Assembly: GCA_020060235.1 (NCBI GenBank)
Contig: JAGVAO010000059.1
Span: 1-34,198, forward strand
Direction: 5' to 3'
Length of the DNA: 34,198 nucleotides
DNA from: Anaerolineales bacterium
GTDB lineage: Bacteria > Chloroflexota > Anaerolineae > Anaerolineales > Villigracilaceae
In this document: positions 11,506 to 31,032 of the stretch, in pieces
How positions within the stretch are numbered: the first letter of the stretch is position 1
How the letters are laid out: the number at the start of each line of letters is the position of its first letter
Notes under the pieces: model-generated
Seen by the model: the letters and a program-made list of their open reading frames with translations, nothing else
What the model was told of the DNA's origin: nothing
The model's database searches: none
Translations under genes and position numbers: made by a program

Positions 11506-12663
11506 ATGAAAATCCTGACCGTTCTCACTTATTATCGCCCGCACACCTCCGGGTTGACGATTTATGCCGAACGGCTGGCTGAGGCTTTTGCCCGGCGCGG
11601 TCACCAGGTCACCGTTTTGACCTCCCACTTCGACAAGTCGACCCCGGCGGAGGAAGTTTGCAACGGGGTACGGATTGTGCGCGCCCCGGTCATGTTCCGG
11701 GTCAGCAAGGGCGTCATCATGCCAACCTTCGGCTGGCTGGCCTGGAAGTATGTTGCCGGGCACGATGTGGTGCAAATGCACCTGCCGCAGTTCGATGCGC
11801 CAGGTTTTGCCATGCGCGCCCGCTTGATGGGCAAACTTGCTGTGCTGACGTACCACTGCGACCTGCTGCTGCCGAAGGGACTGCTCAATCGGGTTGTCAA
11901 TACGGTGGTTGATTTCCAGAACCACATGGCAGCCCTGCTCGCCAACCACATTGTGACGTACACCCAGGATTACGCCGACCACTCGCCCTTTCTCTCGCGC
12001 TATGCCGATAAACTGACTCCCATCCTGCCGCCGGTGGTGTTGCCCACCCCGCCCGACGGGGCAGTGGAGGCTTTTGCGCGCGAGCACAAGGTTGCCGAGC
12101 GCCGCCCCGTGATAGGCATGGCGACCCGTTTTGCCAGTGAAAAGGGTGTCGAAATCCTGCTGGCGGCCCTGCCTGCTATTTTGGAAAAATATCCCAACGC
12201 CCAGGTTTTATTTGCCGGCCAGCACGAGAATGTGATGGGCGAGCAGGCATATTTCGAGCGACTTGCGCCGACCATCCGCAAGTATGAGGCCAGCGGCAAT
12301 TGGACGTTCCTCGGCGTGCTCAATCCGGCCCAGATGGCAGCCTATTACCCCAACCTGGATGTGCTGGTGGTTCCGAGCCTGAACTCGACCGAAGCCTTTG
12401 GCCTGGTGCAAATCGAGGCAATGATGAATGGCACGCCGAGCATCGCCTCGTCGCTGCCGGGGGTGCGTCGCCCGGCCCAGATGACCGGCATGGGCAAAAT
12501 CGTCCCGATTGGCGATTCTGCCGCGCTGGCCGAAGCCATCCTGGATGTGCTGGCCGAGCCTGAAAAGTACCGCCGCGACCCGCAGGAAATTGCCCGCCCC
12601 TATGACCCCGACAGCGTTGCTGTTGCCTACGAAGAACTCTTTGCAAAATTGGGTAAAAAATAA
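11506..12663 (+). CDS. GT4-family glycosyltransferase (GT-B fold)
   Basis: The 385-residue protein begins with MKILTVLTYYRPHTSGLTIY, the first strand and Gly loop of GT4 enzymes, followed by RGHQVTVLTS. The C-terminal nucleotide-sugar domain has ATRFASEKGVEILL (Arg208 and Lys213, expected to contact the donor diphosphate) and the EX7E motif Glu296-AFGLVQI-Glu304. The enzyme should transfer a sugar from a nucleotide donor, with retention, on the cytosolic side, probably to a lipid-linked or membrane acceptor. There is no signal peptide or membrane span. It opens a 14-kb cluster of membrane glycosyltransferase-like genes and is followed after 2 bases by a methyltransferase, so both likely work on the same glycan. 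Confidence 0.9.
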   Translation: MKILTVLTYYRPHTSGLTIYAERLAEAFARRGHQVTVLTSHFDKSTPAEEVCNGVRIVRAPVMFRVSKGVIMPTFGWLAWKYVAGHDVVQMHLPQFDAPGFAMRARLMGKLAVLTYHCDLLLPKGLLNRVVNTVVDFQNHMAALLANHIVTYTQDYADHSPFLSRYADKLTPILPPVVLPTPPDGAVEAFAREHKVAERRPVIGMATRFASEKGVEILLAALPAILEKYPNAQVLFAGQHENVMGEQAYFERLAPTIRKYEASGNWTFLGVLNPAQMAAYYPNLDVLVVPSLNSTEAFGLVQIEAMMNGTPSIASSLPGVRRPAQMTGMGKIVPIGDSAALAEAILDVLAEPEKYRRDPQEIARPYDPDSVAVAYEELFAKLGKK

Positions 12664-12665
12664 CC

Positions 12666-13460
12666 ATGACTTCAGCGGACAAGGATTTTCTCTACCTGCA
12701 CACCAACAGTCTGCCCTATTTTCGCGGATTGCTGCGGGCGGTCGAATCGCGCTTCTACCTGGATATTGAACTGGCCTCGCCGACCCTCGATGTGGGTTGC
12801 GGCGATGGCCACTTTGCCAGCCTGACCTTTGACCGTCCGCTGGAGGTCGGCCTCGACCCCTGGCACGAGCCGATTCACGAGGCGAAGCAATACAACGCCT
12901 ACGACCTGCTGGTCGAAGCCGACGGCGGGAAGATGCCGTACGAGGATGGGCGGTTTGCCAGCGCGGTCAGCAATTCGGTGCTGGAGCACATTCCGCACCT
13001 GGATGTTGTTCTGGCCGAAACGGCGCGGGTTTTGAAGCCGGGGGCCTTGTTTGTTTTCTGTGTTCCCAACCATAACTTCCTGCCCAGCCTGTCGGTGGCG
13101 CGTTTTTTCGATGCCATCGGCCTGAAAGCGCTTGCTGCTTCCTACCGAGCCTTCTTTAATAAGATTTCGCGCCACCATCACTGCGACGACCCGCAGACCT
13201 GGCAGGCGCGCCTCGAAAAGGCCGGGTTTAAAATCGAGAAGTACTGGCATTATTTTTCCCCTGCCGCGCTTTCGGTGCTGGAGTGGGGACATTATTTTGG
13301 CCTGCCCTCGCTGGTCAGCAAAAAACTGTTCGGGCGCTGGCTTCTCGTGCCTGCGCGCTGGAATTTGGCCCCCTTGCTGGCCTTCCTGTGCCGTTATTAC
13401 GATGAGCCAATTCCGCAGGAGAAGGGTGCTTACACCTTCTATATTGCCCGGCGCGTCTGA
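12666..13460 (+). CDS. SAM-dependent class I methyltransferase
   Basis: The 264-residue protein has motif I LDVGCGDGHF at 41-50, the acidic residue after strand 2 (Asp64 in VGLDPW), and the segment SNSVLEHIPHLDVVLAE then RVLKPGALFVF (103-131) typical of Methyltransf_11 enzymes. The acceptor is not shown by sequence. The C-terminal 80 residues carry a long amphipathic/hydrophobic part (EWGHYFGLPSLVSKK, WNLAPLLAF) that may dock it to the membrane. It starts 2 bases after the GT4 gene, so methylation of a sugar on a lipid-linked glycan is the likely job; methylation of a polyprenyl or quinone-like lipid is possible as well. Confidence 0.85.
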   Translation: MTSADKDFLYLHTNSLPYFRGLLRAVESRFYLDIELASPTLDVGCGDGHFASLTFDRPLEVGLDPWHEPIHEAKQYNAYDLLVEADGGKMPYEDGRFASAVSNSVLEHIPHLDVVLAETARVLKPGALFVFCVPNHNFLPSLSVARFFDAIGLKALAASYRAFFNKISRHHHCDDPQTWQARLEKAGFKIEKYWHYFSPAALSVLEWGHYFGLPSLVSKKLFGRWLLVPARWNLAPLLAFLCRYYDEPIPQEKGAYTFYIARRV

Positions 13461-13508
13461 TTTTTGTCAATAATTTTTTAGCACTGCCCAAAGAGAAGAG
13501 ACTTAACT

Positions 13509-13526
13509 GGAGGAGACAGCCGTCTC
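13509..13526 (+). promoter_or_regulatory. Ribosome binding site followed by a small hairpin at the start codon
   Basis: GGAGGA at 13509-13514 is 12 bases from ATG 13527. GAGAC (13513-13517) and GTCTC (13522-13526) can pair around AGCC, which would cover the end of the binding site and bring it near the start codon. The stem is only 5 bp and may be chance. Confidence 0.35.
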
Positions 13527-15656
13527 ATGGAAGAACCGAGTGTCCTTGATTATCTAAAAGCGAAACTAACCCCCTGGTCGCATGAAAAAATAGAGATTCC
13601 TTCTGCCGAGGATGAGCCGCTGCAGGCTTCCCCGGCGCGTGAACTGCCCCTGCCTGGCAAGTCTGATTCGCGCAAACCGTTGCCCTGGCGCGCATTGCTG
13701 GCCCTGGCCCTGGCGATTGTGGCGCAGTCCTTCCTCGAGCCGCCCGCCGTGCTTGTGCCCCTGGCTGCGTTTTTGTACGCGCTGTCGCTGGGTTTTCTGG
13801 CCTGGGCGGCTTATGCGGGTGAGTGGGCCTTCCCGCGCCTGCGTGAGGAGAACCCTGCCGCAGACCCCGGACAGTTTCGCGGCATTTCGTTAATTGCGGC
13901 GGTGGTTTCGTCGGCGCTGGCTTTTATCTTTTTCCTGCTTGAAGACAATCGCTTTACTTCTCTGAATCTTTTCTTTTGGCTGGCGGCGATTGCGTTGTTT
14001 GTGCATGGATTGTGGCTTTCGGATGGCAAGAGTCTTTCCGTCCGATTCGACGATTTGCGCGGTTTCTTTGCGCGCCGTGAGTGGGTCATCCCCGTGACGC
14101 GCTGGACCCTGCTCTTGCTGGCTGTCTGGGGCCTCGCCTTGTTTTTCCGCTTTTCCGAGATTGACACCGTCCCTGCCCAGCCGTTTAGCGACCATGCCGA
14201 AAAATTGCTTGATGTTTATGATTTAACCCAGGGGCAGCACAAAGTCTTTTTCGAGCGTAACACGGGCCGTGAATTCCTCCAGTTTTACCTGACGGCCTTT
14301 GTTGCCTGGCTGTTTGGCACCGACCTGTCTTTCCTCAGCCTGAAAATCGGCACTGCTCTGATAGGATTCCTGACTCTTCCCTATATTTACCTGCTTGGTA
14401 AGGAGGTCGGCAACAAGCGCATTGCCTTGTTTGCCCTGGCCTTTGCCGCGATTGCCTATTGGCCGAACGTCATCAGCCGGGTTGGTTTGCGCTATCCGCT
14501 TTACCCGCTGTTTGCCGCGCCGGTGCTCTTCTACCTCCTACGCGGACTGCGCACCCAAAACCGCAACGATTTCATCATGGCTGGCCTGTTTCTCGGCCTG
14601 GGGCTGCACGGCTATAGCCCTTTCCGCTTTGTGCCAATTGCGGTGCTCATTATTTTTGGCGTTTACCTGCTGCACCAGCGCGCCCCTGAATTGCGCCAGC
14701 AGGTGTTAATGATGCTCTCGCTGGTAATTTTTGCTTCCACGCTGGTTTTCCTGCCCCTGCTGGCTTACGGATTGCAGAATCCCGGCGCGGTTGCTTATCG
14801 CTCCCTGACCCGCCTGGCGGAGACCGAGCGGGCATTCCCCGGCCCTCCGCTGGAAATTTTCTTCGAAAACCTGAAAAGCGCCCTGTTGATGTTCAACTAC
14901 GACAATGGCAACGTCTGGGTGCATTCCGTCACCATGCGCCCGGCGCTGGATGTCATTTCGGCGGCGCTCTTTGCCCTCGGCTTTTTCATGCTCCTGGCGC
15001 GCTACCTGTCCCGGCGCGATTGGCGCGACCTGACCCTCTTGCTGGGTATTCCGTTGCTGTTGATGCCCTCCGTCCTGTCGCTAGCCTTCCCGTCCGAAAA
15101 TCCCGCCCTGAACCGCGCGGGTGGCGCTTATGTGATTGTCTTTGTCATGCTGGCCTTCGCACTCGACGGCGTGTTTACCGGAATCCGGCGCGCGGGTTGG
15201 CGCGTCCTCGCGGCTACACTGGTAACGGCTCTCTTTCTCGTCTCCGTTGTTTTGAATTACGGGCTGGTCTTCGAGCGTTATGCCAGCCAGTTCCGCTCGG
15301 CTATCTGGAATACCTCCGACATTTCCGCGCAGGTCAACGCCTTTGAACTGGCGGGTAATTCGCGCTACAATGCCTGGGTGCTTCCATACCCGCACTGGGT
15401 GGATACCCGCCTGGTGGGAGTCATGCTTGGCGACCCGACCTATGACCCCGTTCTGTGGCCCGACCAGGTTGGTGATACGGTTTACCGGGCTGGCAATAAA
15501 CTCTTCTTTATCAAGCAGGATGATTTCGATTCGTTAACCCTGCTCCGCCAGGTTTATCCGCAGGGCGCGTTGAGTTATTACCGCGCCGCGCCTGATTTAC
15601 TCGGCAAAGATTTCTGGGTCTTTTCCGTCCCCGATAACAGAATAGGTTTGCCCTGA
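13527..15656 (+). CDS. GT39-like polytopic glycosyltransferase
   Basis: The 709-residue protein has a hydrophilic N-terminal 50 residues, then about a dozen hydrophobic helices, and ends in a soluble part (about 590-709). After the helix ending LALFFRFSEIDTVPAQPF comes SDHAEKLLDVYDL (221-233). This is the place of the acidic motif that in PMT/ArnT-type GT-C enzymes sits in the first external loop (here Asp222 and Glu225). LLGKEVGNKRIALFALAFAA and ISRVGLRYPLYPLFAAPVLFYLL are typical of GT39-like proteins. Such enzymes take a sugar from a polyprenyl phosphate carrier outside the membrane and transfer it to protein or lipid. Its last base is the first base of the next ATG, so the two are translationally coupled. 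Donor and acceptor are unknown. Confidence 0.8.
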   Translation: MEEPSVLDYLKAKLTPWSHEKIEIPSAEDEPLQASPARELPLPGKSDSRKPLPWRALLALALAIVAQSFLEPPAVLVPLAAFLYALSLGFLAWAAYAGEWAFPRLREENPAADPGQFRGISLIAAVVSSALAFIFFLLEDNRFTSLNLFFWLAAIALFVHGLWLSDGKSLSVRFDDLRGFFARREWVIPVTRWTLLLLAVWGLALFFRFSEIDTVPAQPFSDHAEKLLDVYDLTQGQHKVFFERNTGREFLQFYLTAFVAWLFGTDLSFLSLKIGTALIGFLTLPYIYLLGKEVGNKRIALFALAFAAIAYWPNVISRVGLRYPLYPLFAAPVLFYLLRGLRTQNRNDFIMAGLFLGLGLHGYSPFRFVPIAVLIIFGVYLLHQRAPELRQQVLMMLSLVIFASTLVFLPLLAYGLQNPGAVAYRSLTRLAETERAFPGPPLEIFFENLKSALLMFNYDNGNVWVHSVTMRPALDVISAALFALGFFMLLARYLSRRDWRDLTLLLGIPLLLMPSVLSLAFPSENPALNRAGGAYVIVFVMLAFALDGVFTGIRRAGWRVLAATLVTALFLVSVVLNYGLVFERYASQFRSAIWNTSDISAQVNAFELAGNSRYNAWVLPYPHWVDTRLVGVMLGDPTYDPVLWPDQVGDTVYRAGNKLFFIKQDDFDSLTLLRQVYPQGALSYYRAAPDLLGKDFWVFSVPDNRIGLP

Positions 15657-18600
15657 TGAACACACAACCTCGCCGCCGCTCGCTTTCCTTTTTCTATGAC
15701 ATTTTCCTTGTCGTTATCCTGCTGGTCGGGGCCTATTTCCGCCTGATTGGCCCCAACTGGACGCTCGAACAGGTCTGGCTTGGCCTGACCGGCCAGGCCG
15801 AATCCCCCGCCCTGGTTTCGGACTGGGACCAAAGCCAGCATCTGCACCCTGACGAGCGCTTCCTGACAATGGTCTCAACCGCCATTTCACCCGTCAAAGG
15901 CTGCTCCCTGCCGGATGTGTCGCTGCAAGACTGCCCCAATAGTGAAAAGCAGTGGATTACCCCTTCCGAATACTTCGACACCCTCAACTCCTCGCTCAAC
16001 CCCAATAATCGCGGCTACGGTTTTTACGTTTATGGCACGCTGCCGCTCTTCATCGTCCGCTATGTCGGCGAGTTCCTTGGCATGACCGGTTACGATGAAA
16101 TCAACCTGGTTGGCCGCCAGGTTTCCGCGCTGATTGACATTGGTTCGGTTTTCCTGCTTTATTTGATTGCCTCACGCCTGTACGGGCGCCGGGTTGGCCT
16201 GTTGGCCGCCGCATTTTCCGCGCTGGCGGTCATGCAAATCCAGCAGTCGCATTTTTACACGGTCGATAACTTCCCGACCTTCTTCATGCTCCTTGCGGCT
16301 TATTTTGCGCTGGATGTTGCCCTCGCGCGGCGGATGCGGGTCGATATTTCCGATTCTCCGTCCGGGGCCTGGGAGCGCGCCCTGGGCGGCCTGCTCACCT
16401 CGAGCCTGTTCTGGTATTCGATACTCTTTGGCCTGGCGACAGGCATGGCAATGGCCTCCAAACTTAATGCTGCCCCGGTGGCCGGGTTGCTGCCGCTGGC
16501 GCTCCTGATTCACTTCTGGCGTACCAAAGACCAATCCATAGAATTCTCCGTTCCGCCGCTTGAAACCGAAGACGGAGAATCCGCGCCCCCGCAACCAGCC
16601 CCTCCCGGCCCTTACGACTACCTGTGGACCCTGACCGGTTTCCTCGTCCTCGGCGCATTCCTGACAATAGTTTCCTTCCGCATTTTCCAGCCATATGCCT
16701 TCAGCGGGCCGGGCTTCCTTGGGTTTGCTCCCAACCCGGCCTGGGTACAGGTCATCAGCGAACAGCGCGCCCAGGCCTCCGGCGATGTTGACTTCCCGCC
16801 CGCGCTGCAATGGGCGCGCCGTCCGGCGACCTTCTCACTTCAGAACATTGTCGCCTGGGGGCTGGGATGGCCGCTCGGCATTTTGGCTTTTATCGGCCTG
16901 CTCTACATGGGCTGGCGCATCCTGCGTGGGGAGGCCAGGCAGCATCTCCTGCTCTGGTTCTGGACCCTGGCTTACTTCCTGTGGCAGTCCATGGAGTGGA
17001 ATCCGACCATGCGCTACCAGTTGCCCATCTACCCGCTCCTGGCAATGATGGCAGCCTGGTTTATCTTCAATGGCCCGCGTTGGAAACTGAAACCCGACCC
17101 CGCCAAGTTCGAGACGGAGTCCCGCACACACCCGGCGGCGATAGCGCTCTACTCGTTCCTTGGCGTGGCAGTCCTGCTTTCCACTTTTGGCTGGGCCTAT
17201 GCCTTTACGCGCATCTATACCCGTGAGCATTCCCGCGTCCAGGCCACGCGCTGGATATACAACAACGTCCCCGGCCCAATTAATCTGCATGTCGCTGTCG
17301 ATGGCGACATGCGCCAGCAGCCCCTGCCTTTCTCGAGCAGTTTTGTCATTAGTCCGGTTACGCCGCTGGTGACCCAGTTCAACGCTCGCCACGAGGGCGA
17401 ACTGCGCGAATTGTCTTTTGCCTATGCCCTCGACCCGCTTTTTGGCGGCGCGCAGGTGGTCAACGTCTTGCTCTCGACCGATTTTTCCTTTGCCCCTGAA
17501 TCGATTCTTACCAGCGCCACCGCCCAGGCCGATTTTTCGGCCCGTAGCCACCCGCGTGGTATCCCGTTTCGCTTGCGTTTCGAGCAGCCGATGGCCCTCG
17601 AAGCCGGGCAGACTTATTACCTGCGCATCGAGACCAGTGGCGAGTTGACCCTTTCGGGCGCGGCCCCGGCCAGTGAAACGGATTGGGACGACGGCCTGCC
17701 GCTGCGCATGGACGGGTACGATGGCTATGGCGGAATCTACGAAGGCGGCCTTAATTTCCAGATGTATTGGGACGACAACCTTGAAAAGCTGGAACGTTTC
17801 GCTACCAACCTCGACGCCGCCGATTATGTTTTCATCTCATCCAACCGCCAGTGGGGGACGACTACCCGCGTTCCCGAACGCTACCCGCTGACGACGGTCT
17901 ATTACCGCGCCCTGCTCGGCTGCCCGGCGGAGAAGGACTTGCTGTGGTGTTACAGCGTGGCCCGTCCCGGTGATTTCGAAGGGCAGTTGGGCTACGAACT
18001 GATTCAGACCTTTGAGTCGTACCCGACCCTCGACCTGGGCGCTGTCGGCTTCTGGGAATTCAACACCCAGTTTGCCGAAGAAGCCTTTACCGTGTACGAC
18101 CATCCAAAAGTCTTGTTGTTCAAAAAGAGCGATTCGTACAATCCACAGACTGTGCGCCGTATTTTGGAGGAAGTGGATTTGAGCCGTGTCGTGCGCCTGA
18201 CTCCGCGCAAGGCCGGGTCTTACAGCGGCCCGCCCTCCGGATTGATGCCCCAAACCTGTTGGGGCATGGCGGGCCTGTGCGATGCGCTCGGAGCGCCGGA
18301 AGCCTCACTGCTGGCTGATAAAAACCTGCCGCGCATGGCAAACGAGATGATGTTGTCGCCTGAGCGTTGGGCTGCCCAGCGGGCGGGTGGAACCTGGTCG
18401 GAACTTTTTTCCTATGAATCGCTCCAGAATCGCTACCCGCTGCTGGGTTTGCTGCTCTGGTATTTCTTCCTGGCTATTCTCGGCTGGGCGGTTTATCCGT
18501 TCTTGCGCCTGTTGCTGTCTGGGCTTGTCGACAAGGGCTACCCGCTGGCGCGCCTTTCGGGGCTGGTGCTGCTGGCCTGGATGGTCTGGTTCCCGGCTTC

Positions 18601-20923
18601 GGTTGGCGGGGTCTACACCCGCACGACGATAGCGGCGACTTTCGCCCTCCTTCTGACAGCCGGGCTGGTCGCTGCCTGGTTCCAGCGCGAGGAACTGAGG
18701 GCCGAAATCCGCGCCAATGGGCGTTACTTCCTGATAGTCGAAGGGATTTTCCTGGCCTTCTTTGTCATTGACCTGCTGATTCGCGTGGGTAACCCCGATT
18801 TGTGGCACCCGGCCAAGGGCGGCGAACGCCCGATGGATTTTGCCTACCTGAACGCCATCCTGAAAGGCACCACCTTCCCGCCCTACGACCCCTGGTATGC
18901 GGGCGGCTATATCAACTACTATTATTATGGTTTTGTGTTGGTTGGCACGCCGCTGAAATTGCTTGGTCTCGTGCCTTCGATTGCGTATAACTTTATTCTG
19001 CCCAGCCTGTTTGCCATGCTGGCCCTGGCAGGTTTCTCGGTCGCCTGGAATTTCTTTGCCTTGTGGCAAAAGTCCCAACCTGCCGCCCCCGAACCGGAAG
19101 AGACCACCCTCGAACTCCCAGTCGATGGGGAGGAGGCGCAGGCCGAAGTCCCCGCTGAACCTGTTGCCAAGAGTCGCACCTCCTGGCTGGATGGCCGCTG
19201 GATTTCCGGTCTGGCCGCCGCGATTGGTTTGGTGCTGATAGGCAATTTGGGTAGCCTACAACTCGTTTTCCAGCATTTACAAAAGCAGGCGGTGGACTAT
19301 GAAACCTTCGCCAGCCGCGAAACCTGGATGATTCAACGCCTGGGTTGGGCCTTGCAGGGATTGTATAAAACCCTGACAGGCCAGGCGGGCGGAATTCCGA
19401 TGGACCACTGGTACTGGAATCCAAGCCGGGTTATGCCGCCGGGCGACATCGCCATTACCGAGTTCCCGTTGTTCACTTTTCTGTACAGCGACCTGCATGC
19501 CCACATGATAGCCCTGCCCCTGACCGTACTGGCCCTGGCCTGGGCGCTCTCGGCCCTTTTCGCGCGCGGACTCAGCCCCCTGCGCTGGCTGGCGACCCTG
19601 GCTTTTGGCGGGTTGGTGCTTGGCGCATTGCGCCCGACCAATACCTGGGACCTGCCGACCTACTTGGTCTTTGCCCTGGTCGTCACCGGCTATGCCGTTT
19701 TCCGCTATGCAGGCAGTTCGCCGCGCTTTGGCCTGCACCCCCTGCTCTGGCGCGGATTGCTGGCGCTGGCGGCGATGGCCGCACTGGCCGGTTTTGCCCT
19801 GCTTTTCTACCAACCCTATGCCCAGTGGTTTGGACTGGGTTACACCGAAATCAAAATCTGGGAAAACGAGAAAACACCCATCTGGTCGTACTGGACGCAG
19901 TGGGGACTGTTCCTGTTTATCCTTGTCTTCTGGATGGCCTGGGAAACCCGTCAGTGGCTGGCCCAGACCCCGCTCTCGGCGCTCTCCAGGCTCAGGCCGT
20001 ATAAGCCTTTCATCCAGGCGGGTGTTGTGATTGCGCTGGCGGGCCTGCTGGCAATCCCGCTCTATACCAAAGCCGATGTGGCCTGGTTTAGCCTGCCGCT
20101 GGCGCTTTGGGCCTTGCTGCTGCTCCTGCGCCCCGGCATGTCCGACGCAAAACGCTTTGCGCTCTTTATGGTTGGGACTGCGCTTGTCATCACCCTGGCT
20201 GTCGATGTGGTTGCCCTGGCTGGTGACCGTATGAACACGGTTTTTAAGTTTTATGTTCAAGGTTGGGTATTGTTTGCTGTCAGCGCCGCCGCCGCCCTGG
20301 CCTGGACGTTGTCCGAATTCGAGCAGTGGCACCCCCGCTGGCGGCGTGTGTGGATGAGCGGCATGTTCCTGCTTGGCGGCATTGCCTTCCTCTTTACCCT
20401 GACGGCCACCAGCGCAAAAATCCAGGACCGCATGACCCCCAATGTCCCGATGACCCTCGATAGCATGGAATACATGGCCCACGCCCAATATTGGGACGGC
20501 GAACAAATGCAACTCAGCCAGGATTATCGCGCCATCCGCTGGATGCAGGACAACGTGACAGGCTCTCCCGTCATCGTCGAGGGCCACGCGCCGGAATATC
20601 GTTGGGGTTCGCGCTATACCGTTTACACCGGCCTGCCCTCAGTCGTCGGCTGGAACTGGCACCAGCGCCAGCAGCGCGCCCTGATGCCCGGCAGCCTGGT
20701 CTTTGGCCGGGTCGACGAGGTCAATAATTTCTACAATACTGCCAATATGCAAGAAGTGCGCGAATTCATCGCCAAATACGATGTGCGCTACGTCATCGTC
20801 GGCCAGATGGAACGCATCTACTACACCCCCGGCGGCCTGCTCAAGTTTGAATCGCAGGAAGGCCGCCTGTGGCGCGCCGTTTACCGTGACGCCGATACGG
20901 TCATCTACGAGGTTATCCGGTGA
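15656..20923 (+). CDS. Giant membrane protein: GT39-like N-terminal half fused to YYY (DUF2298) C-terminal half
   Basis: At 1755 residues this is the largest protein here. The N-terminal half (about 1-500) is a GT39-like membrane unit: Asp56/Asp58 and HPDE at 64-67 in the first external loop, and FYTVDN at about 200-205. Residues about 520-900 form a soluble, probably external beta-rich region (LEAGQTYYLRIETSGELTL). From about 925 a second polytopic unit of the YYY type begins, with YYYYG at 1088-1092, DLHAH at 1279-1283, NTWDLP at 1329-1334, RMNTVFKFY from Arg1525 and GWNWHQRQQ from 1665. All of these recur in the protein at 21276. The YYY family has no known function; its fusion to a GT39-like half suggests that it too handles polyprenyl-linked sugars. 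It overlaps the genes on both sides by 1 and 4 bases. The domain boundaries are estimates. Confidence 0.82.
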   Translation: MNTQPRRRSLSFFYDIFLVVILLVGAYFRLIGPNWTLEQVWLGLTGQAESPALVSDWDQSQHLHPDERFLTMVSTAISPVKGCSLPDVSLQDCPNSEKQWITPSEYFDTLNSSLNPNNRGYGFYVYGTLPLFIVRYVGEFLGMTGYDEINLVGRQVSALIDIGSVFLLYLIASRLYGRRVGLLAAAFSALAVMQIQQSHFYTVDNFPTFFMLLAAYFALDVALARRMRVDISDSPSGAWERALGGLLTSSLFWYSILFGLATGMAMASKLNAAPVAGLLPLALLIHFWRTKDQSIEFSVPPLETEDGESAPPQPAPPGPYDYLWTLTGFLVLGAFLTIVSFRIFQPYAFSGPGFLGFAPNPAWVQVISEQRAQASGDVDFPPALQWARRPATFSLQNIVAWGLGWPLGILAFIGLLYMGWRILRGEARQHLLLWFWTLAYFLWQSMEWNPTMRYQLPIYPLLAMMAAWFIFNGPRWKLKPDPAKFETESRTHPAAIALYSFLGVAVLLSTFGWAYAFTRIYTREHSRVQATRWIYNNVPGPINLHVAVDGDMRQQPLPFSSSFVISPVTPLVTQFNARHEGELRELSFAYALDPLFGGAQVVNVLLSTDFSFAPESILTSATAQADFSARSHPRGIPFRLRFEQPMALEAGQTYYLRIETSGELTLSGAAPASETDWDDGLPLRMDGYDGYGGIYEGGLNFQMYWDDNLEKLERFATNLDAADYVFISSNRQWGTTTRVPERYPLTTVYYRALLGCPAEKDLLWCYSVARPGDFEGQLGYELIQTFESYPTLDLGAVGFWEFNTQFAEEAFTVYDHPKVLLFKKSDSYNPQTVRRILEEVDLSRVVRLTPRKAGSYSGPPSGLMPQTCWGMAGLCDALGAPEASLLADKNLPRMANEMMLSPERWAAQRAGGTWSELFSYESLQNRYPLLGLLLWYFFLAILGWAVYPFLRLLLSGLVDKGYPLARLSGLVLLAWMVWFPASVGGVYTRTTIAATFALLLTAGLVAAWFQREELRAEIRANGRYFLIVEGIFLAFFVIDLLIRVGNPDLWHPAKGGERPMDFAYLNAILKGTTFPPYDPWYAGGYINYYYYGFVLVGTPLKLLGLVPSIAYNFILPSLFAMLALAGFSVAWNFFALWQKSQPAAPEPEETTLELPVDGEEAQAEVPAEPVAKSRTSWLDGRWISGLAAAIGLVLIGNLGSLQLVFQHLQKQAVDYETFASRETWMIQRLGWALQGLYKTLTGQAGGIPMDHWYWNPSRVMPPGDIAITEFPLFTFLYSDLHAHMIALPLTVLALAWALSALFARGLSPLRWLATLAFGGLVLGALRPTNTWDLPTYLVFALVVTGYAVFRYAGSSPRFGLHPLLWRGLLALAAMAALAGFALLFYQPYAQWFGLGYTEIKIWENEKTPIWSYWTQWGLFLFILVFWMAWETRQWLAQTPLSALSRLRPYKPFIQAGVVIALAGLLAIPLYTKADVAWFSLPLALWALLLLLRPGMSDAKRFALFMVGTALVITLAVDVVALAGDRMNTVFKFYVQGWVLFAVSAAAALAWTLSEFEQWHPRWRRVWMSGMFLLGGIAFLFTLTATSAKIQDRMTPNVPMTLDSMEYMAHAQYWDGEQMQLSQDYRAIRWMQDNVTGSPVIVEGHAPEYRWGSRYTVYTGLPSVVGWNWHQRQQRALMPGSLVFGRVDEVNNFYNTANMQEVREFIAKYDVRYVIVGQMERIYYTPGGLLKFESQEGRLWRAVYRDADTVIYEVIR

Positions 20924-21279
20924 AAATCTATCACATCGTTGCCGCAAATGACTGGCATCCTGGCCAGCCGTACCGCGCCGCCTCGCTCGTCAGCGAGGGG
21001 TTTATCCATTTCTCGCGCCTTGACCAGGTTTTGGGCGTTGCCAATGCCTTCTATGCGGGACAGCGCGGGCTGCTGCTCCTGGAAGTGGACGTTGAGTGTT
21101 TAACCGCCGAATTGCGCTGGGAGGCCCCCGTCCACCCCGCCGCGCCCGCGCCCGGAACGCTGCCGCCCGAAAGCCTGTTTCCGCATCTCTACGGGCCGCT
21201 CAATCCTGAAGCCGTCCTGGCTACCCATCCCTTTGAGCCGGGCGAAGACGGGGTCTTTACCCTGCCTGATGGACTATGA
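20920..21279 (+). CDS. DUF952-family small protein
   Basis: The 119-residue protein starts at GTG 20920, which overlaps the previous stop as GTGA; its own stop overlaps the next start as ATGA, so three genes are translationally chained. It is a full-length DUF952: IYHIV at 3-7, GFIHFSRLDQV at 27-37, a LLLLEVD strand at 51-57, Glu68, and the closing FPHLYGPL at 87-94. No signal peptide or membrane span is present, so it acts in the cytosol. Function is not established; I recall that the family has been suggested to resemble ADP-ribosyltransferase-like folds, with the conserved His residues in the pocket, but I am not certain of that. Its place inside the membrane glycosylation cluster is unusual. 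Confidence 0.85.
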   Translation: MKIYHIVAANDWHPGQPYRAASLVSEGFIHFSRLDQVLGVANAFYAGQRGLLLLEVDVECLTAELRWEAPVHPAAPAPGTLPPESLFPHLYGPLNPEAVLATHPFEPGEDGVFTLPDGL

Positions 21280-23711
21280 CTCACTTCATCCTCTGGTACC
21301 TGCTCATCACTGCCATCGGGTTGTTGACCTTCCCGCTGGCGTTTCGCCTGCTCCCGGCCCTGCCTGAGCGCGGATACGCTTTCAGCCGCGCCCTTGGCCT
21401 GTTGCTGTGGGGATTTATTTTCTGGCTGGCGGTTTCGTTTGGGCTGGCGCGCAACGACCTGAACGGCTTGTTCGTCACCCTGCTGGCCCTGGCCGCTTTC
21501 TCGTTCTGGTGGGGGCGTAGCGAATTTCCCGCCCTGCGCGATTGGTTCAAGGCGCATTCGGGTTATGTCCTGGCGGTCGAAATCCTGTTCCTGGCGGCGT
21601 TTGCCGGGCTGGCTTATGTGCGCTCCTACGCGCCCGAGGCCCTCGGCACCGAAAAGCCGATGGAGCTGGCCTTCATCAATGCCGTCCTGCGCTCTGAAAC
21701 CTTCCCGCCGCAAGACCCCTGGCTCTCCGGGTACGCCATTTCATATTATTACTTTGGCTATGTGCTGACCGGCATGATGGCCAAGACCACCGCCACGCTC
21801 GGCGGGGTGGCTTTTAACCTGATGATTGCGCTGGTCTTTGGCCTGAGCGCGGCTGGCGCGTATGGCCTGCTTTACAACCTGCTCAAGACGGTGGGAAAAC
21901 CTCGTCCCGCGCTCTTTTCTTTCTCCGGGCCTTTGTTCCTTCTGATTGTCAGCAATCTCGAAGGCTTCCTCGAAGTCCTGCGCCAGCGCGGAATTGGCTG
22001 GAACGGCGACATCGGCCCGTTTTGGGAATGGCTGAACATGAAAGACCTCAGCAGCGCACCTTCCCAACCCTACGGCTGGGAACCGGAGCGTTTCTGGTGG
22101 TGGTGGCGCGCCTCGCGTGTGTTGCACGACTATGACTTGCAAGGCCGCTTTGTCGAAGTTATTGACGAGTTCCCATTCTTTTCTTACCTGCTGGCAGACC
22201 TGCACCCGCACGTTCTTGCCATGCCGTTTGGTTTGCTGGCGATTGGCCTGGCCCTCAACCTGTACCTGGGCGGCTGGAAAGGCGAAATTGACCTGCGCCT
22301 GACCCGCCTGCCGCTTGCGCCGCAGGGTTTTGTTATTCTCGCCATTACCCTGGGTGGGCTGGCCTTCCTGAACACCTGGGATTTGCCGGTTTACCTGGCG
22401 CTGGCCGGGGCCGGGCTGCTCTTCTGGCAGGTGCGCGAATATGGCTGGAGCTGGGCGCGACTCGAACACCTGGTTGTCACCGGTTTGCTGCTGGCGCTGG
22501 CCTCGCTGGCGCTGTATTTCCCGTTTTATGCCAGTTTTTCGTCGCAGGCGGGCGGTATTTTGCCCAATATCATCTTCCCGACCCGCGGCGCGTATTTGTG
22601 GATTATGTTCGGCTCGTTGTTTGTGCCGATGTTCCTGTTCCTGGCCCACTTGCGCAGAAGTTTGGATTTGAACCTGCGCCTGGGATTCGGGCTGGCGGGC
22701 GGGTTTACGCTCGTGCTGTGGCTGGTTTCCTTGCTGATGGGGCTGCTGGCGGCGAACACCGAGGCCGGGCAGTCGCTGATTGCTTTGCAGGAGATGCAGG
22801 ATGTTTGGGAAATTTTCGGCGCCGCGGCCACCCGTAGGTTGGCGTTCGCTGGCGGGTTGTTGACGCTGGTGGCCCTGCTCGGCTGGACAGCGGCTTATTT
22901 GACGGCCACACAGGCTAAGGCTGAGTCCGCTTCGGCGGCGGGCCACTCGCGCCACGGCCGCGTCCATGCCGAATCGGCTCCGGCGGGCGACCAGCCGCTT
23001 CCTTTCCTGCTGGCGATGGTTTTGATTGGCGGCTTGCTCGTGCTTGGGCCGGAATTTGTTTACCTGCACGACGGATTTGGCAACCGCATGAACACGGTTT
23101 TCAAGTTCTACTACCAGGCCTGGACGCTCTGGGCGCTGGTTTCGGCCTATGCGCTGGCGGTTATTTTTGGCGAGTCTCGCGGTTGGACGACCTGGGCGGC
23201 GCGATTTGTGCTGGTTGCGGTGCTGGTGATGGGATTGGCCTACCCCTGGTTTGCGCTGCCCAACCGTGCCAACCGCTTCCAGGCCGAGCAGCCGACGCTC
23301 GATGCTGCCGCATACCTGGAGCGGTATACGCCCGAAGACGCGGCGGTGGTCGAGTTCCTGCGCGGGCAGCCCAACGGGGTGGTGGCCGAGGCGGTTGGCG
23401 GCAGTTACAGCGAGTATGGCCGGATTGCGACCCACACGGGCCTGCAAAATGTGATTGGCTGGGGCTGGCACCAGTGGCAGTGGCGCGGCGGCAATGAGTT
23501 GACTGCCGGACGCGAGGACGCCATGCGGATGCTTTACGAAACGCCGTCATGGAATCAGGCCAGCGAAATTTTGGCGCGTTACAATGTCCGTTATGTGGTG
23601 GTGGGCGGGTTGGAGCAGCGCACCTACCGGGTCAACGAAGCAAAATTTGCCAATTTGCGCGAAATTTTCCGCGCGGGCAATACGGTTGTCTATTTGGTTC
23701 CTGAACGCTAA
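21276..23711 (+). CDS. YYY-family (DUF2298) polytopic membrane protein, single-copy form
   Basis: The 811-residue protein is the stand-alone type of the YYY family. It shares with the C-terminal half of its giant neighbour, in the same order: NAVLRSETFPPQDPWLSGY then SYYYFG (157-161), DLHPH (308-312), NTWDLPVYLAL (366-376), RMNTVFKFYYQAW (604-616), GWGWHQWQW (728-736) and YNVRYVVVGGLEQ (769-781). The strictly shared Asp-Leu-His-x-His sits next to a membrane helix and is the best candidate for an active or metal-binding site. About 15 hydrophobic segments are followed by a soluble C-terminal part from about 660. Residues 545-575 form a short hydrophilic loop absent from the other copy. The pair probably arose by duplication; the role in glycan transfer is inferred from context. 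Confidence 0.85.
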   Translation: MTHFILWYLLITAIGLLTFPLAFRLLPALPERGYAFSRALGLLLWGFIFWLAVSFGLARNDLNGLFVTLLALAAFSFWWGRSEFPALRDWFKAHSGYVLAVEILFLAAFAGLAYVRSYAPEALGTEKPMELAFINAVLRSETFPPQDPWLSGYAISYYYFGYVLTGMMAKTTATLGGVAFNLMIALVFGLSAAGAYGLLYNLLKTVGKPRPALFSFSGPLFLLIVSNLEGFLEVLRQRGIGWNGDIGPFWEWLNMKDLSSAPSQPYGWEPERFWWWWRASRVLHDYDLQGRFVEVIDEFPFFSYLLADLHPHVLAMPFGLLAIGLALNLYLGGWKGEIDLRLTRLPLAPQGFVILAITLGGLAFLNTWDLPVYLALAGAGLLFWQVREYGWSWARLEHLVVTGLLLALASLALYFPFYASFSSQAGGILPNIIFPTRGAYLWIMFGSLFVPMFLFLAHLRRSLDLNLRLGFGLAGGFTLVLWLVSLLMGLLAANTEAGQSLIALQEMQDVWEIFGAAATRRLAFAGGLLTLVALLGWTAAYLTATQAKAESASAAGHSRHGRVHAESAPAGDQPLPFLLAMVLIGGLLVLGPEFVYLHDGFGNRMNTVFKFYYQAWTLWALVSAYALAVIFGESRGWTTWAARFVLVAVLVMGLAYPWFALPNRANRFQAEQPTLDAAAYLERYTPEDAAVVEFLRGQPNGVVAEAVGGSYSEYGRIATHTGLQNVIGWGWHQWQWRGGNELTAGREDAMRMLYETPSWNQASEILARYNVRYVVVGGLEQRTYRVNEAKFANLREIFRAGNTVVYLVPER

Positions 23712-23719
23712 CTCACGGG

Positions 23720-23725
23720 TAAAAT
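23720..23725 (+). promoter_or_regulatory. Leaderless-type -10 box within the glycan cluster
   Basis: TAAAAT is followed by 7 bases and ATG 23733; no ribosome binding site is visible between the YYY gene stop and this start. This is the same spacing as at the thioesterase gene. Confidence 0.4.
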
Positions 23726-23732
23726 ATCTGTT

Positions 23733-25487
23733 ATGGACTTCAATTTGAAAAACGAAAAACTCTGGTTTGGGCTGGCGTTTGTGCTGGCAATCGCGTTCCG
23801 CTTGCTGCGGCTGGGCGAGGTTCCGCTTTCGGATGCCGAGGCGGCCTGGGCTTTGCAATCCTTCGACCTTGCGCGCGGCCTGCCTTTCGACTTTGGCCCC
23901 AACCCCGCTTATATCAACCTGACGGCGCTGGCTTTCTTCCTTTTGCAGGCCAGCAACTTTGCCGCGCGGTTGGTTCCGGCCCTGGCGGGCGCTGCGCTTG
24001 TGCTGACCCCGTTCTTCTTCCGTGACCGGCTGGGCGGCAAGGTGGCCCTTGTGCTGGCTTTTGTGCTGGCTTTCGAGCCGGGGCTGCTGGCGCTCTCACG
24101 GCAGGCGGATGGCCCGATTATGGCGGTCAGTTTTTTCATGCTGGCCTGGGGCGTCTGGCGCAGCAATATGCCGCGCCTGGCGGGTTTCCTGGCCGGGTTG
24201 GCCCTGCTTGCGGGCAGCCCGCTCTGGTTTGGCCTGCTGGGTTTGTTTTTGGCTTTTGCGCTGGCCCAGGTTTTGACTCCTGACCTCGGGTTGTCTTTTG
24301 AGAAGGAACGCATCCGCCCGGCGGCGTACTTTGCGGCCGGGACGTATTTCATTCTCGGCAGTCTCTTCCTGCTGGCTCCCGGCGGTTTGGGCGCTGGCCT
24401 TTCGGGGTTGCTGGGGATTTTTACCACTTTCCTGACACCCGGCGGCGTTCCGGTCTGGCTGCCGCTTCTGGCCTTGTTGCTTTACCAGTTCCCGGCCGTG
24501 GTGCTGGCCCTGGTTGCGCTCGGGCGTTTGTTTGTCCGACGTGACCCGCTGGTGATTTTCCTCGGCGTCTGGCTGCTGGCCGCTTTGCTGCTGGCTGTCC
24601 TGCCGCCCTCGCGCCAGGTCGGTGACCTGGCCTGGGCCTTGCTGCCGCTCTGGACGCTGGCTGCTATCGAAGCGGCGCGCTGGCTTGAGCCTGTCCGCCC
24701 GGTGATGGAACTCCAGGTGTTTGCCTCCGAGCAAAATCCTGACGAGGCCGAGTTGCGTCCGGTGACCATTTCCACAGGCCTTTGGGAAACCATCGGCATG
24801 GCTGTCCTGACTGCCATTTTGCTGGCTTTTGCCTGGTTGAATTTTAGCGCCGCCACCCTGGTGCCGTTCCCGCCCGAGACCGCGCAGTTGCGCTGGTTCC
24901 TGGTGGCGGCAACCCTGGTGATGCTGGCGCTCAGCGTCGCCCTGGTGGCGTTTGGCTGGTCAGCCAGCGCTTCTTTCAAGGGTTTTGCCTGGGGCGGCAT
25001 GTCGATGCTTGCCGCTTACCTCATTGCAATGGCAACCTTCTCGGCTAACCTGCGCCCTCTGCCGACCGTAGAGATGTGGCCTGCCGGGCCGCAGTCTCCC
25101 GCCGCCTGGGTGATACACGACCAGATGAACGAAATTTCGCAATTTTCACGCGGCGTAAACGCCTCGCTTGAAGTTGTGCTTGTCGAGACCAATTCGCCCG
25201 CCCTGCGCTGGCTGCTGCGCGACTGGCGTGTGACCCAGGCCCAGGCCATTTCGGTCGATTCTGTGCCGGAACTTATCCTGATGCCGGCCAACACCCTGCC
25301 CCCCGAACTTGAACCGGCCTATCGCGGCGCGTCTTTCAATTTGCGGGCTTATACGGCCTGGGAGCAGGTCACGCTCGACGATTGGATGCGCTGGATAGTC
25401 AACCACACCCTGCCGCAAGGTCAGGAAAGCATCCTGCTCTGGGCGCGCGGCGACTTGTTCCCCGATGCGCAAAACCCCGCCCCGTAA
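23733..25487 (+). CDS. GT39-like membrane protein (ArnT/Agl23-type)
   Basis: The 584-residue protein has about ten to twelve hydrophobic helices and a soluble C-terminal tail from about 455. Right after the first helix stands FRLLRLGEVPLSDAEAAWAL (22-41). The Asp34-x-Glu36 pair in this position is the acidic motif of GT-C/GT39 enzymes, and the LGEVPLSDAE wording is typical of Chloroflexi and archaeal members annotated as Agl23-type or PMT-like proteins. LALSRQADGPIMAVSFFMLAWGVW (110-133) matches the next conserved region. It probably transfers a sugar from polyprenyl phosphate, as the last gene of the cluster. The gap to the YYY gene is 21 bases and holds a possible leaderless promoter. Confidence 0.75.
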   Translation: MDFNLKNEKLWFGLAFVLAIAFRLLRLGEVPLSDAEAAWALQSFDLARGLPFDFGPNPAYINLTALAFFLLQASNFAARLVPALAGAALVLTPFFFRDRLGGKVALVLAFVLAFEPGLLALSRQADGPIMAVSFFMLAWGVWRSNMPRLAGFLAGLALLAGSPLWFGLLGLFLAFALAQVLTPDLGLSFEKERIRPAAYFAAGTYFILGSLFLLAPGGLGAGLSGLLGIFTTFLTPGGVPVWLPLLALLLYQFPAVVLALVALGRLFVRRDPLVIFLGVWLLAALLLAVLPPSRQVGDLAWALLPLWTLAAIEAARWLEPVRPVMELQVFASEQNPDEAELRPVTISTGLWETIGMAVLTAILLAFAWLNFSAATLVPFPPETAQLRWFLVAATLVMLALSVALVAFGWSASASFKGFAWGGMSMLAAYLIAMATFSANLRPLPTVEMWPAGPQSPAAWVIHDQMNEISQFSRGVNASLEVVLVETNSPALRWLLRDWRVTQAQAISVDSVPELILMPANTLPPELEPAYRGASFNLRAYTAWEQVTLDDWMRWIVNHTLPQGQESILLWARGDLFPDAQNPAP

Positions 25488-25523: not shown

Positions 25524-26201
25524 ATGTCAGACTTGCGCATCATCGCCATCGACGGCCCGGCGGCATCGGGCAAATCCACGCTCGGGTTTCGCCTTGCCGA
25601 GGCGCTTGGCTATCTCTACTTCGACACCGGCCTGATGTACCGCGCCGTTACCTGGCTGGCCCTCCAGCGCGGCCTCGACCTGCGCGACGAATCTGCCGTT
25701 ACCCGTCTGGCCGAGGACGTTCCCATCGAGGTCTCTCCCTCTTCCTTTGAAGACGGCCGCTCCTGCGACATCGTTGTCGATGGGCAGGACATCACCTGGG
25801 ACATCCGCAAGCCGGAGGTGGATGCCAACGTTTCTGTCGTTGCCGCTTATCCCGGCGTCCGCCAGGCCCTGACCGTCCAGCAGCGCCGCATTGGCCTGCG
25901 CGGGCGGGTGGTTATGGTCGGGCGTGATATTGGCACGGTCGTCCTGCCCGAAGCCGACGTTAAAATCTACCTCGATGCTTCGGCGGGGGAACGCGCTCGC
26001 CGCCGCTATGACGAAATCCTGCAAAGGGGCGGGACAGCCGACTTCGGCGAAATCCTGTCCAAGGTCAATGAGCGCGACCGCATCGACTCCACCCGCGACG
26101 TGGCTCCCCTTAAACCAGCCGACGACGCCGTTTTGATTGATTCCGACAAACTCAACGCCGACCAGGTTTTCCAAAAAGCCCTCGCCTTATGCAAAGCGTA
26201 G
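25524..26201 (+). CDS. cmk: (d)CMP kinase
   Basis: The 225-residue protein phosphorylates CMP and dCMP with ATP in the cytosol, feeding nucleic acid and CDP-lipid synthesis. The P-loop GPAASGKST is at residues 11-19, followed by YLYFDTGLMYRAVTWLAL (30-47), which holds the conserved Asp, Tyr and Arg that bind the CMP base and ribose. The C-terminal part has GRDIGTVVLPEADVKIYLDAS and RDRIDSTRDVAPL, the expected lid and substrate region. Length is normal for the long bacterial type. AGGAG stands before ATG 25524. plsC starts inside its last 13 bases, a pairing known from other bacteria. Confidence 0.95.
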   Translation: MSDLRIIAIDGPAASGKSTLGFRLAEALGYLYFDTGLMYRAVTWLALQRGLDLRDESAVTRLAEDVPIEVSPSSFEDGRSCDIVVDGQDITWDIRKPEVDANVSVVAAYPGVRQALTVQQRRIGLRGRVVMVGRDIGTVVLPEADVKIYLDASAGERARRRYDEILQRGGTADFGEILSKVNERDRIDSTRDVAPLKPADDAVLIDSDKLNADQVFQKALALCKA

Positions 26202-26911
26202 ACCGTTACCGGACTCCTTTCTTCAACTGGCTGGCGCGCACCCTGCTGCGGCCTGTCTTTCGCGGGCTGTTTCGTATTCTGGCGCGCATCGAACTGCACG
26301 GCCTTGAAAATGTCCCGCGCGGTACGGCGTATGTCACCGCTTTCAACCACGTCTCGACTTTCGACCCGCCCTTCCTGTTGACCTTCTGGCCTGAGAACAT
26401 CGAAGTCCTGGGCGCATCCGACATCTGGAATCGCGCCGGATTCGGCCAGAATATCCTCGTGCGCCTGTTTGGCGGCATTCCCGTCCATCGCGGTGAATAC
26501 GACCGCCAGGCCCTTGAGCGCGTGGTGCGAATCTTGAAATCCAACTACCCGCTGTTGATTTCCCCCGAAGGCGGACGCACCCGCGTCACCGCCATGCGCC
26601 GGGGCCGCCCCGGAATCTCTTACATTGTCGAAGCAGCCAACGTGCCGGTTGTCCCGGTTGGCATCGTTGGCACCACCACCGACTTTTTCCGGCGCGCCAT
26701 TCGCGGACAACGCCCGCAATTAATCCTGCGGGTCGGCAAGCCGTTCCACCTCCCGCCGGTCGAAGGCAAAGGCGACGCGCGCCGCCAGTCCCGTCAGCAG
26801 AATGTGGACCTGGTCATGCGACACATTGCCGGGCTTTTGCCCGAAGACTATCGCGGTGTCTACTTCGGTCAGGAAATTTTTGCAAACGACGCCGATGGCG
26901 GCAAAAATTAG
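26189..26911 (+). CDS. plsC: 1-acyl-sn-glycerol-3-phosphate acyltransferase (PlsC-like)
   Basis: The 240-residue protein carries the acyltransferase motif I NHVSTFDPP (Asn53, His54, Asp59; H-x4-D), motif II around GGIPVHRGEYDRQA, the SPEGGRTR motif III (usually FPEGTR) and VPVVPVGIVG motif IV. It transfers an acyl chain to lysophosphatidic acid at the membrane, giving phosphatidic acid. The N terminus (RTLLRPVFRGLFRIL) is amphipathic and can sit on the membrane. It overlaps cmk by 13 bases in another frame, so translation is coupled. A terminator hairpin follows. Confidence 0.9.
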   Translation: MQSVDRYRTPFFNWLARTLLRPVFRGLFRILARIELHGLENVPRGTAYVTAFNHVSTFDPPFLLTFWPENIEVLGASDIWNRAGFGQNILVRLFGGIPVHRGEYDRQALERVVRILKSNYPLLISPEGGRTRVTAMRRGRPGISYIVEAANVPVVPVGIVGTTTDFFRRAIRGQRPQLILRVGKPFHLPPVEGKGDARRQSRQQNVDLVMRHIAGLLPEDYRGVYFGQEIFANDADGGKN

Positions 26912-30690: not shown

Positions 30691-31032
30691 GTGCAGCGTC
30701 GCTTTCGACTGACCCGGTCCACAGAGTTCAAGCGGGTGCGGAATCACGGCAAGTCTTTCGCGCACCCGCTTGTCGTGTTGATTGCCCAGTCGACTGAAGA
30801 ACCGGGCTTGCGGGTGGGGGTCGCCGCGGGCCGTTCGCTCGGCGGGGCCGTCGAGCGCAATCGCGCCAAACGCCTGCTGCGCGAGGCCATTCGGCCTGAA
30901 ATCCCATCCCTGTTCACTGGCCGAGATATTGTCCTGATAGCCCGCCCGCTTTTGCTTCGGGCGCAGTTTAGCGAAATTACAAAAGCCGTTTCGGGGCTTT
31001 TGCGGCGCGCCAACCTATACCGACCTGAATGA
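30691..31032 (+). CDS. rnpA: Ribonuclease P protein component
   Basis: The 113-residue protein starts at GTG 30691 with GAGGG immediately upstream; no other start in the frame gives a sensible N terminus. [19 protein letters not shown] (5-23) and the signature [15 protein letters not shown] (54-68) are diagnostic: the RNR-x-KR-x-x-RE helix contacts the RNase P RNA. With that RNA it cleaves the 5' leaders of tRNA precursors, such as the tRNA-Glu at the end of this window. Its stop overlaps the yidD start as ATGA. Confidence 0.95.

Follow-up and report, generated by a model that had tools for sequence, protein, structure and literature searches.

What is the function of a membrane domain that recurs across the Chloroflexota under names that say nothing of its role? 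The question is raised by a cluster of seven genes in the 34,198-nucleotide stretch that we analysed (hereafter the window; contig JAGVAO010000059.1 of the Anaerolineales bacterium assembly GCA_020060235.1, family Villigracilaceae). Two of the seven encode full members of the YYY family (DUF2298, or TIGR03662 Chlor_Arch_YYY), and neither family name gives a function. We propose, with a probability of roughly 0.7, that this locus carries the genes of an extracytoplasmic glycan-assembly system in which the YYY units would form a distant STT3/AglB-like branch of the glycosyltransferase C (GT-C) superfamily, a reading that draws on sequence comparison and predicted structures.

The cluster consists of seven consecutive open reading frames (ORFs) on the + strand at 11506-25487, exactly the span over which a preliminary description, made from the letters alone, had reported seven rightward and mostly touching or overlapping genes. 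Neighbouring genes are separated by 2, 66 and 21 bp at three junctions and overlap by 1, 4 and 4 bp at the other three. The genes and the two parts of the longest one are:

11506..12663, + strand, family 4 glycosyltransferase (GT4), 385 amino acids, probably cytosolic (PF00534/PF13439; Glycos_transf_1, E 5.6e-29)
12666..13460, + strand, S-adenosylmethionine-dependent methyltransferase, 264 amino acids (PF13489, Methyltransf_23, E 3.8e-16; PF08241)
13527..15656, + strand, PMT_2 (GT39-like) GT-C membrane protein, 709 amino acids (PF13231, E 6e-10)
15656..20923, + strand, long YYY protein, 1755 amino acids, predicted GT-C module (residues 1-928) fused to YYY
15656..18439, + strand, N-terminal predicted GT-C module of the long YYY protein, residues 1-928 (AlphaFold2 model, Foldseek)
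18440..20923, + strand, YYY domain (DUF2298, TIGR03662) of the long protein (TIGR03662, E 1.2e-140, residues 930-1753; DUF2298, E 2.9e-104)
20920..21279, + strand, DUF952 protein, 119 amino acids (PF06108, E 1.1e-24)
21276..23711, + strand, short YYY protein, 811 amino acids, predicted STT3/AglB-like GT-C (TIGR03662, E 5.6e-149; DUF2298, E 1.4e-103)
23733..25487, + strand, 584-amino-acid membrane protein, weakly TIGR03663 (Agl23)-related and GT-C-like (TIGR03663, E 4.9e-13)

Profile matches agree with the GT4, the methyltransferase and the two YYY proteins named by the preliminary description. Both YYY proteins belong to TIGR03662 and PF10060 (470.4 and 498.0 bits against a cut-off of 300.25, positions 3-726 of 727), and at E <= 0.001 DUF2298 is the only Pfam family that they match, PF02516 (STT3) not being among the hits. 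The methyltransferase matches NF045667 (DVU_1556-type) below its cut-off. The two proteins described as GT39-like fared differently: the PMT_2 protein is a member of its Pfam family (40.0 bits against 26.1), whereas the 584-amino-acid protein is linked to such enzymes just by distant profile similarity, with 48.9 bits against the TIGR03663 cut-off of 126.25 and no Pfam match at E <= 0.001. The description did not mention the fusion of a GT-C module to YYY in the 1755-residue protein, and its title omitted the DUF952 gene, whose product has as PDB relatives the hypothetical protein CC0527 (2o0p/2o0q) and 2jqn.

Predicted fold and candidate site of the YYY units

When the PDB was searched by sequence with YYY, the long protein and alignments of the N-terminal module and of the 584-amino-acid protein, no meaningful match came up, so the kinship of YYY to GT-C enzymes is visible by structure alone. 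The AlphaFold2 model of the short YYY protein, built from 123 aligned rows, has a predicted local distance difference test score (pLDDT) of 95.8 and a predicted template modelling (TM) score of 0.95. Searched against the PDB with Foldseek, it returned five matches at E <= 0.001, all to GT-C proteins: AglB (2.7e-6), DPY19 (three matches, 2.5e-5) and AftA (9.3e-5). A structural re-alignment (VIA), which took in Foldseek's own top 1000 chains, placed yeast oligosaccharyltransferase/STT3 (Z 14.8), ALG12 (14.5), AglB (13.0), AftA (12.9), DPY19 (12.8), PMT (12.3) and ArnT (11.6) near the model; the chains of large complexes are named here by the subunits that we take them to be. GT-C or GT-C-like chains and AglB domains fill the first 44 rows, from Z 14.8 down to 7.4; the row after them has a Z of 6.6. 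The AftA alignment spans residues 16-810, nearly the whole length of the short YYY protein. Most STT3 matches leave about 85 residues at the YYY N-terminus uncovered. No sequence relation of YYY to AftA, an arabinosyltransferase, or DPY19, a C-mannosyltransferase, was found. The enzymes named here are GT-C members, with STT3, AglB and PglB classified as GT66 and PMT and ArnT as GT39 and GT83.

The predicted soluble C-terminal domain of YYY (679-809) superposes on an AglB domain (3vu0_C) with a Z of 10.0 and a root-mean-square deviation (rmsd) of 2.7 over 110 aligned residues at 18% identity. The C-terminal part also matches Chloroflexota STT3 by profile-profile comparison (score 32.4, P 9.5e-5, 58.6%), above the maximum of 22.7 obtained in 200 column shuffles. 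On its predicted model, YYY falls within the GT-C superfamily by a multi-helix core in common with solved members, and its C-terminal globular domain is predicted to have the AglB-type fold. The comparison with GT-C folds that the preliminary description had proposed as a test thus yielded a GT-C-like model.

Eight residues (E126, R281, E298, D308, H310, R604, N606 and K610) are identical in 123/123 YYY rows, 76/76 of the short and 47/47 of the long type, so that the active-site candidates among them are kept throughout the long proteins. Passages of PMC7226087 give D47, R154, D161, H163 and E360 as the site of Archaeoglobus fulgidus AglB. Paired by motif and order, E126 would be the counterpart of D47, R281 that of R154 and D308-x-H310 that of the metal-binding D161-x-H163, and R604 may hold the lipid phosphate; for E360 no YYY counterpart is named. 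We read E126, R281, D308, H310 and R604 as a putative AglB-like metal and lipid-phosphate site. The residue order, the D-x-H spacing and the location of E126 fit this comparison: E126 follows helix 95-117 and lies near the start of the STT3 matches (model residues 79-99), and in AglB, as in YYY, an acidic residue stands ahead of the D-x-H motif. The R281/R154 pairing is loose, since R281 lies 27 residues before D308, compared with 7 in AglB. The YYY motif itself (157-159) comes shortly after E126, in our reading at the position where the second transmembrane helix starts in other GT-C proteins. WWD is found after residue 660 in 1/123 YYY rows and in two of the four Chloroflexota STT3 rows (L188 and L190); since the C-terminal domain is without a conserved WWD sequon-binding motif, the YYY acceptor is probably not an N-glycosylation sequon.

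The N-terminal half of the long YYY protein is clearly another GT-C module, judging from its predicted structure (residues 1-928, pLDDT 87.7). Of 28 Foldseek matches to the PDB at E <= 0.001, AglB is the best (6.9e-10), and re-alignment gave a Z of 25.8 for AglB, 24.1 for ArnT (rmsd 3.6 over 355 residues) and 23.9 for Pmt4 (rmsd 3.8). Profile comparisons connect the module to the PMT_2 family (98%), the family of the 584-amino-acid protein (94%) and STT3 (96%), and the N-terminal half weakly matches the archaeal STT3 model TIGR04154 (E 1.2e-5). It carries an HPDE motif (64-67), a beta-strand-rich insert and a soluble C-terminal domain. The modelled core is common to the PMT/ArnT transferases, from which the module differs in its insert and in being joined to a YYY unit. 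The two are separate neighbouring genes in locus L183, and in L175 the module is fused to two YYY units. Given the profile relations of the N-terminal module to the PMT_2, 584-amino-acid and STT3 families, we count five or more GT-C-like membrane modules, spread over four proteins of the operon and assigned by Pfam (PMT_2 protein), by predicted structure (N-terminal module and short YYY), by homology to the short YYY (long YYY unit) and by distant profile similarity (Agl23-like protein).

Conservation of the operon and its partners

TIGR03662 matches were found in 61/61 genomes of the same family (60 over the cut-off), mostly as one long and one short copy near each other. In 20 same-family loci, the PMT_2 protein and the short YYY are present in 20/20 and the long YYY in 19/20 by ORF; in the twentieth locus, L047, the long YYY is present by TIGR03662 profile search. 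The methyltransferase was identified in 18/20 (one of them weak), the DUF952 gene in 15/20, and the GT4 and the 584-amino-acid homologue in 13/20 each; some of the misses fall at contig or region ends. With GT4 in 13 and the methyltransferase in 18 of these loci, an obligate partnership between these two genes was dropped. Beyond the family, the pair is found in L184 and the methyltransferase in L176.

A second set of loci came from a contig scan with the short YYY, in which the best 80 of 572 confirmed stretches (590 found) were taken as named relatives. Among these 80, the closest contigs carry titles at the level of Chloroflexi, Chloroflexota or Anaerolineae, the nearest at 71%. Where at least 9 kb lay upstream of the short YYY (48 named loci), the long YYY was present in 42, the PMT_2 protein in 35, the GT4 in 29 and the methyltransferase in 26. 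Where at least 4 kb lay downstream (52 named loci), the 584-amino-acid homologue was found in 37, a cytidylate kinase in 32, histidine kinase homologues in 26 and a PlsC-type acyltransferase in 19. The two sets partly overlap (judged by length, L051 and L082 come from one contig) and are therefore not independent. The recurrence of the gene set in other genomes argues that its composition is not due to chance.

Across the phylum we sampled 201 Chloroflexota genomes at least 80% complete, in counts that take no account of kinship. TIGR03662 matches 146 of them (131 over the cut-off) and TIGR03663 matches 168 (130 over the cut-off). At E < 1e-20, the threshold set in this analysis for a strong call, YYY is found in 134 genomes and TIGR03663 in 131: 131 have both, three YYY only, none TIGR03663 only and 67 neither, so that strong TIGR03663 members occur in 131/134 strong-YYY genomes and in no genome without a strong YYY. 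TIGRFAMs reportedly notes that the two families co-occur, and Lu et al. 2020 is said to be a study on Agl22 and Agl23. The full TIGR03663 protein of the window genome (L170:6426-9797), GT-C-like and with an NHL-repeat C-terminus, is encoded on a contig (C166) other than that of the YYY operon. In other families, a large TIGR03663 protein that bears NHL repeats recurs beside YYY (e.g. L223, L228 and L237). The 584-amino-acid operon protein is a weak relative, under the family cut-off, of TIGR03663/Agl23 of Haloarcula hispanica. Contig C22 of the window genome also encodes a 1730-amino-acid protein (L171:4545-9734), a tandem GT-C in which two stretches match PMT_2.

Of 31 phylum-level loci, three from families already sampled (L179, L180 and L181) were first left out. 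Around YYY in the remaining 28, non-YYY ORFs matching GT-C profiles account for 36/309 ORFs, in 20 loci, compared with 0/186 ORFs in 20 control loci from the same genomes or phylum (10 kb each, against 11-20 kb for the test loci). Adding the three gave 37/332 ORFs in 21/31 loci. L222 and L224 contributed no flanking genes, as they had no YYY ORF after longest-ORF picking. Beyond the family, Pfam PMT_2 is present in 26/122 proteins flanking YYY, a count that took 122 of 127 flanking proteins and left out five of L220, a locus of the same order and operon type; PMT_2 is missing from the 25 Pfam families listed, out of 142, for 98 control proteins, where one match is possible. The neighbourhood survey proposed beforehand in the preliminary description thus found the cluster conserved within the family and kept in a smaller version beyond it.

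LPG_synthase_TM (PF03706) was also detected beside YYY, in 5/122 flanking proteins (A7 and A8 flanks, e.g. L177:1435-2451), and does not appear in the 25 Pfam families listed for the 98 control proteins; these proteins are possible flippases of lipid-linked sugars. In L175, a carotenoid ketolase-like gene, not a GT-C gene, adjoins YYY.

YYY had been described as limited mainly to Chloroflexi and Archaea, which holds in outline. Among 14 control genomes, TIGR03662 matches the archaea Haloferax volcanii and Methanosarcina acetivorans alone, and TIGR03663 matches four, both archaea included, two of the four exceeding the cut-off. The limit is broken by plasmid pNP95 of Pseudobutyrivibrio xylanivorans (Bacillota), which carries a YYY gene over the cut-off (L186:9917-12172, 432 bits); as this gene stands in a polysaccharide gene cluster, it supports a role in glycan assembly. 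A search of viral contigs for the YYY pattern gave no match.

The proposed pathway and its alternatives

In the pathway that we propose, GT2 enzymes encoded elsewhere would make polyprenyl-phosphate sugars in the cytosol, which would then be flipped to the outer side. There the GT-C modules, with the YYY units as a distant STT3/AglB-like branch, would transfer the sugars with the help of an acidic residue of the first loop on that side, and the GT4 and the methyltransferase may work inside, building or capping the cytosolic part of the glycan. The finished product may be carried by protein, lipid or polysaccharide. The same genome has ArnC-, PgfS- and AglJ-like GT2 genes, all under the curated equivalog cut-offs (typing covered 7 of 21 GT2 matches). 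The preliminary description had suggested a glycan made inside, methylated and transferred outside; such a pathway, with flipping before the transfer, is in our view a reasonable conjecture.

Several observations weigh against this proposal. The membrane half of YYY matches the STT3 profile at 0.6%, which is not significant (whole YYY, 36%), nor are the matches of the YYY profile to the N-terminal module (10%) and the PMT_2 family (16%). The five PDB matches have low TM-scores (0.32-0.39, normalised by query length), and whole-chain rmsd in the re-alignment is about 5-9 A; the relation of YYY to GT-C proteins is therefore distant. Helical bundles can reach a Z of about 13 through a common arrangement, so the argument rests on how consistent the list is and on the fall in Z after row 44. 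Some GT-C-fold chains in that list are accessory subunits (PIG-U), and a GT-C fold by itself is no demonstration of activity. The YYY/AglB residue equivalences come from motif and order, not from coordinates. At the level of genes, neither a polyprenyl-phosphate sugar synthase nor a clear flippase is encoded in the operon itself, the complete set was found in 17/36 named loci with enough flank, and no other GT-C-profile gene was found at 8/28 phylum-wide loci (10/31 with the three added). Of the neighbours that an incomplete gene table lists for the YYY gene of a Halarchaeum plasmid, none on either flank is annotated as a glycosyltransferase, which disfavours a universal YYY neighbourhood.

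We consider it unlikely that YYY proteins are true oligosaccharyltransferases, moving a ready-made lipid-linked glycan en bloc to a protein or surface acceptor in place of AglB or PglB. STT3 and AglB rank among the closest structural relatives of YYY, sharing with its predicted model the GT-C core and the C-terminal soluble domain, and the D-x-H motif is as in AglB. Single-sugar GT-C enzymes match the model equally well, however (ALG12, Z 14.5), the YYY membrane half lacks significant sequence similarity to STT3/AglB/PglB, and WWD is all but missing from the rows, as given above. The distribution of STT3 bears on the same question. PF02516 matches 59 of the 201 genomes at E <= 0.001, of which 27 exceed Pfam's low cut-off and four reach E < 1e-15 (L188, L189, L190 and L191), leaving 197 without a strong match; 23 of the 27 are there by weak matches alone. 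All matches outside the four strong genomes are weak and partial and may be other GT-C proteins. Three of the four strong STT3 genomes are without a strong YYY, which is suggestive, no more, of replacement of STT3 by YYY in the phylum; three of four are too few for complementarity to be called. We give the same limited credence to the narrower idea that YYY could be a separate oligosaccharyltransferase-like class of Chloroflexota and some archaea, which, by a sequon-independent mechanism, would hand a methylated lipid-linked glycan over to its surface acceptor as the last step.

It is unlikely that the operon makes a lipoglycan in a layout like that of actinobacterial phosphatidylinositol mannosides, lipomannan and lipoarabinomannan, with a PimA-like GT4, a PlsC-like acyltransferase, GT-C elongases and a methyl cap. 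PimA is the second PDB sequence match of the GT4, after Tll1590, the AftA alignment over the short YYY is nearly complete, and a PlsC homologue is adjacent here and downstream in 19/52 named loci. The GT4 matches are nevertheless generic, and a PlsC gene beside a cytidylate kinase may be housekeeping.

Still less convincing, to our minds, is the idea that YYY and TIGR03663 proteins together flip or scramble lipid-linked sugars, with the GT-C fold serving lipid handling rather than transfer. TIGR03663 is named after Agl23, and its co-occurrence with YYY is near-perfect. Parts of PMC11182771 report that H. hispanica Agl23 translocated lipid-linked oligosaccharide in liposomes and suppressed loss of rft1 in yeast. 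The reported flipping concerns Agl23, though, and not YYY, and YYY keeps a full invariant set of acidic, arginine and histidine residues at positions fitting a GT-C active site, which counts against this idea because a flippase would not need them.

That the genes are merely adjacent, their membrane proteins having unrelated roles, would fit the 17/36 and 8/28 counts, and is very improbable in view of the fusion of YYY to a GT-C module (the two being adjacent as separate genes in L183), the 36/309 against 0/186 ORFs with GT-C profiles and the 131/131 co-occurrence of TIGR03663 with YYY.

Neighbouring genes and significance

Two genes follow the operon directly:

25524..26201, + strand, cytidylate kinase (PF02224, E 1.2e-69)
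26189..26911, + strand, PlsC-type acyltransferase (PF01553, E 1.7e-21)

The cytidylate kinase is probably a housekeeping gene. A large sensor histidine kinase (27078-30359) lies 3' of the acyltransferase. About 6.6 kb upstream of the operon is a homologue of the MurJ-type lipid II flippase (3381-4901, - strand; PF03023, E 4.8e-68), a possible flippase. Further downstream, a pyrroloquinoline quinone (PQQ) beta-propeller protein (31334-32428) is encoded between rnpA (30691-31032) and yidC (32444-33295), an arrangement that is unusual to our knowledge.

The cluster had been presented as a candidate undescribed system. YYY and TIGR03663 are already curated families, and an archaeal Agl23 has experimental data, as reported in PMC11182771, so the term is apt only in part. 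The assignment of YYY to GT-C was not found in the literature searched, and the portions of publications naming DUF2298, TIGR03662, TIGR03663 or PF10060 that were seen (e.g. the appendix gene list of PMC8756737) give no function. As far as our searches reach, the GT-C/AglB-like model of YYY, its invariant site, the GT-C-YYY fusion and the conservation of the operon are new.

Surface glycosylation of Chloroflexota looks little studied, from a limited literature search. The DUF952 gene is kept in the operon at 15/20 same-family loci, although its family has no assigned role. A domain of unknown function, strong in 134/201 Chloroflexota genomes and present in two archaea used in the laboratory (H. 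volcanii and M. acetivorans), gains a testable predicted role, that of an STT3-like GT-C in the assembly of outer-surface glycans.

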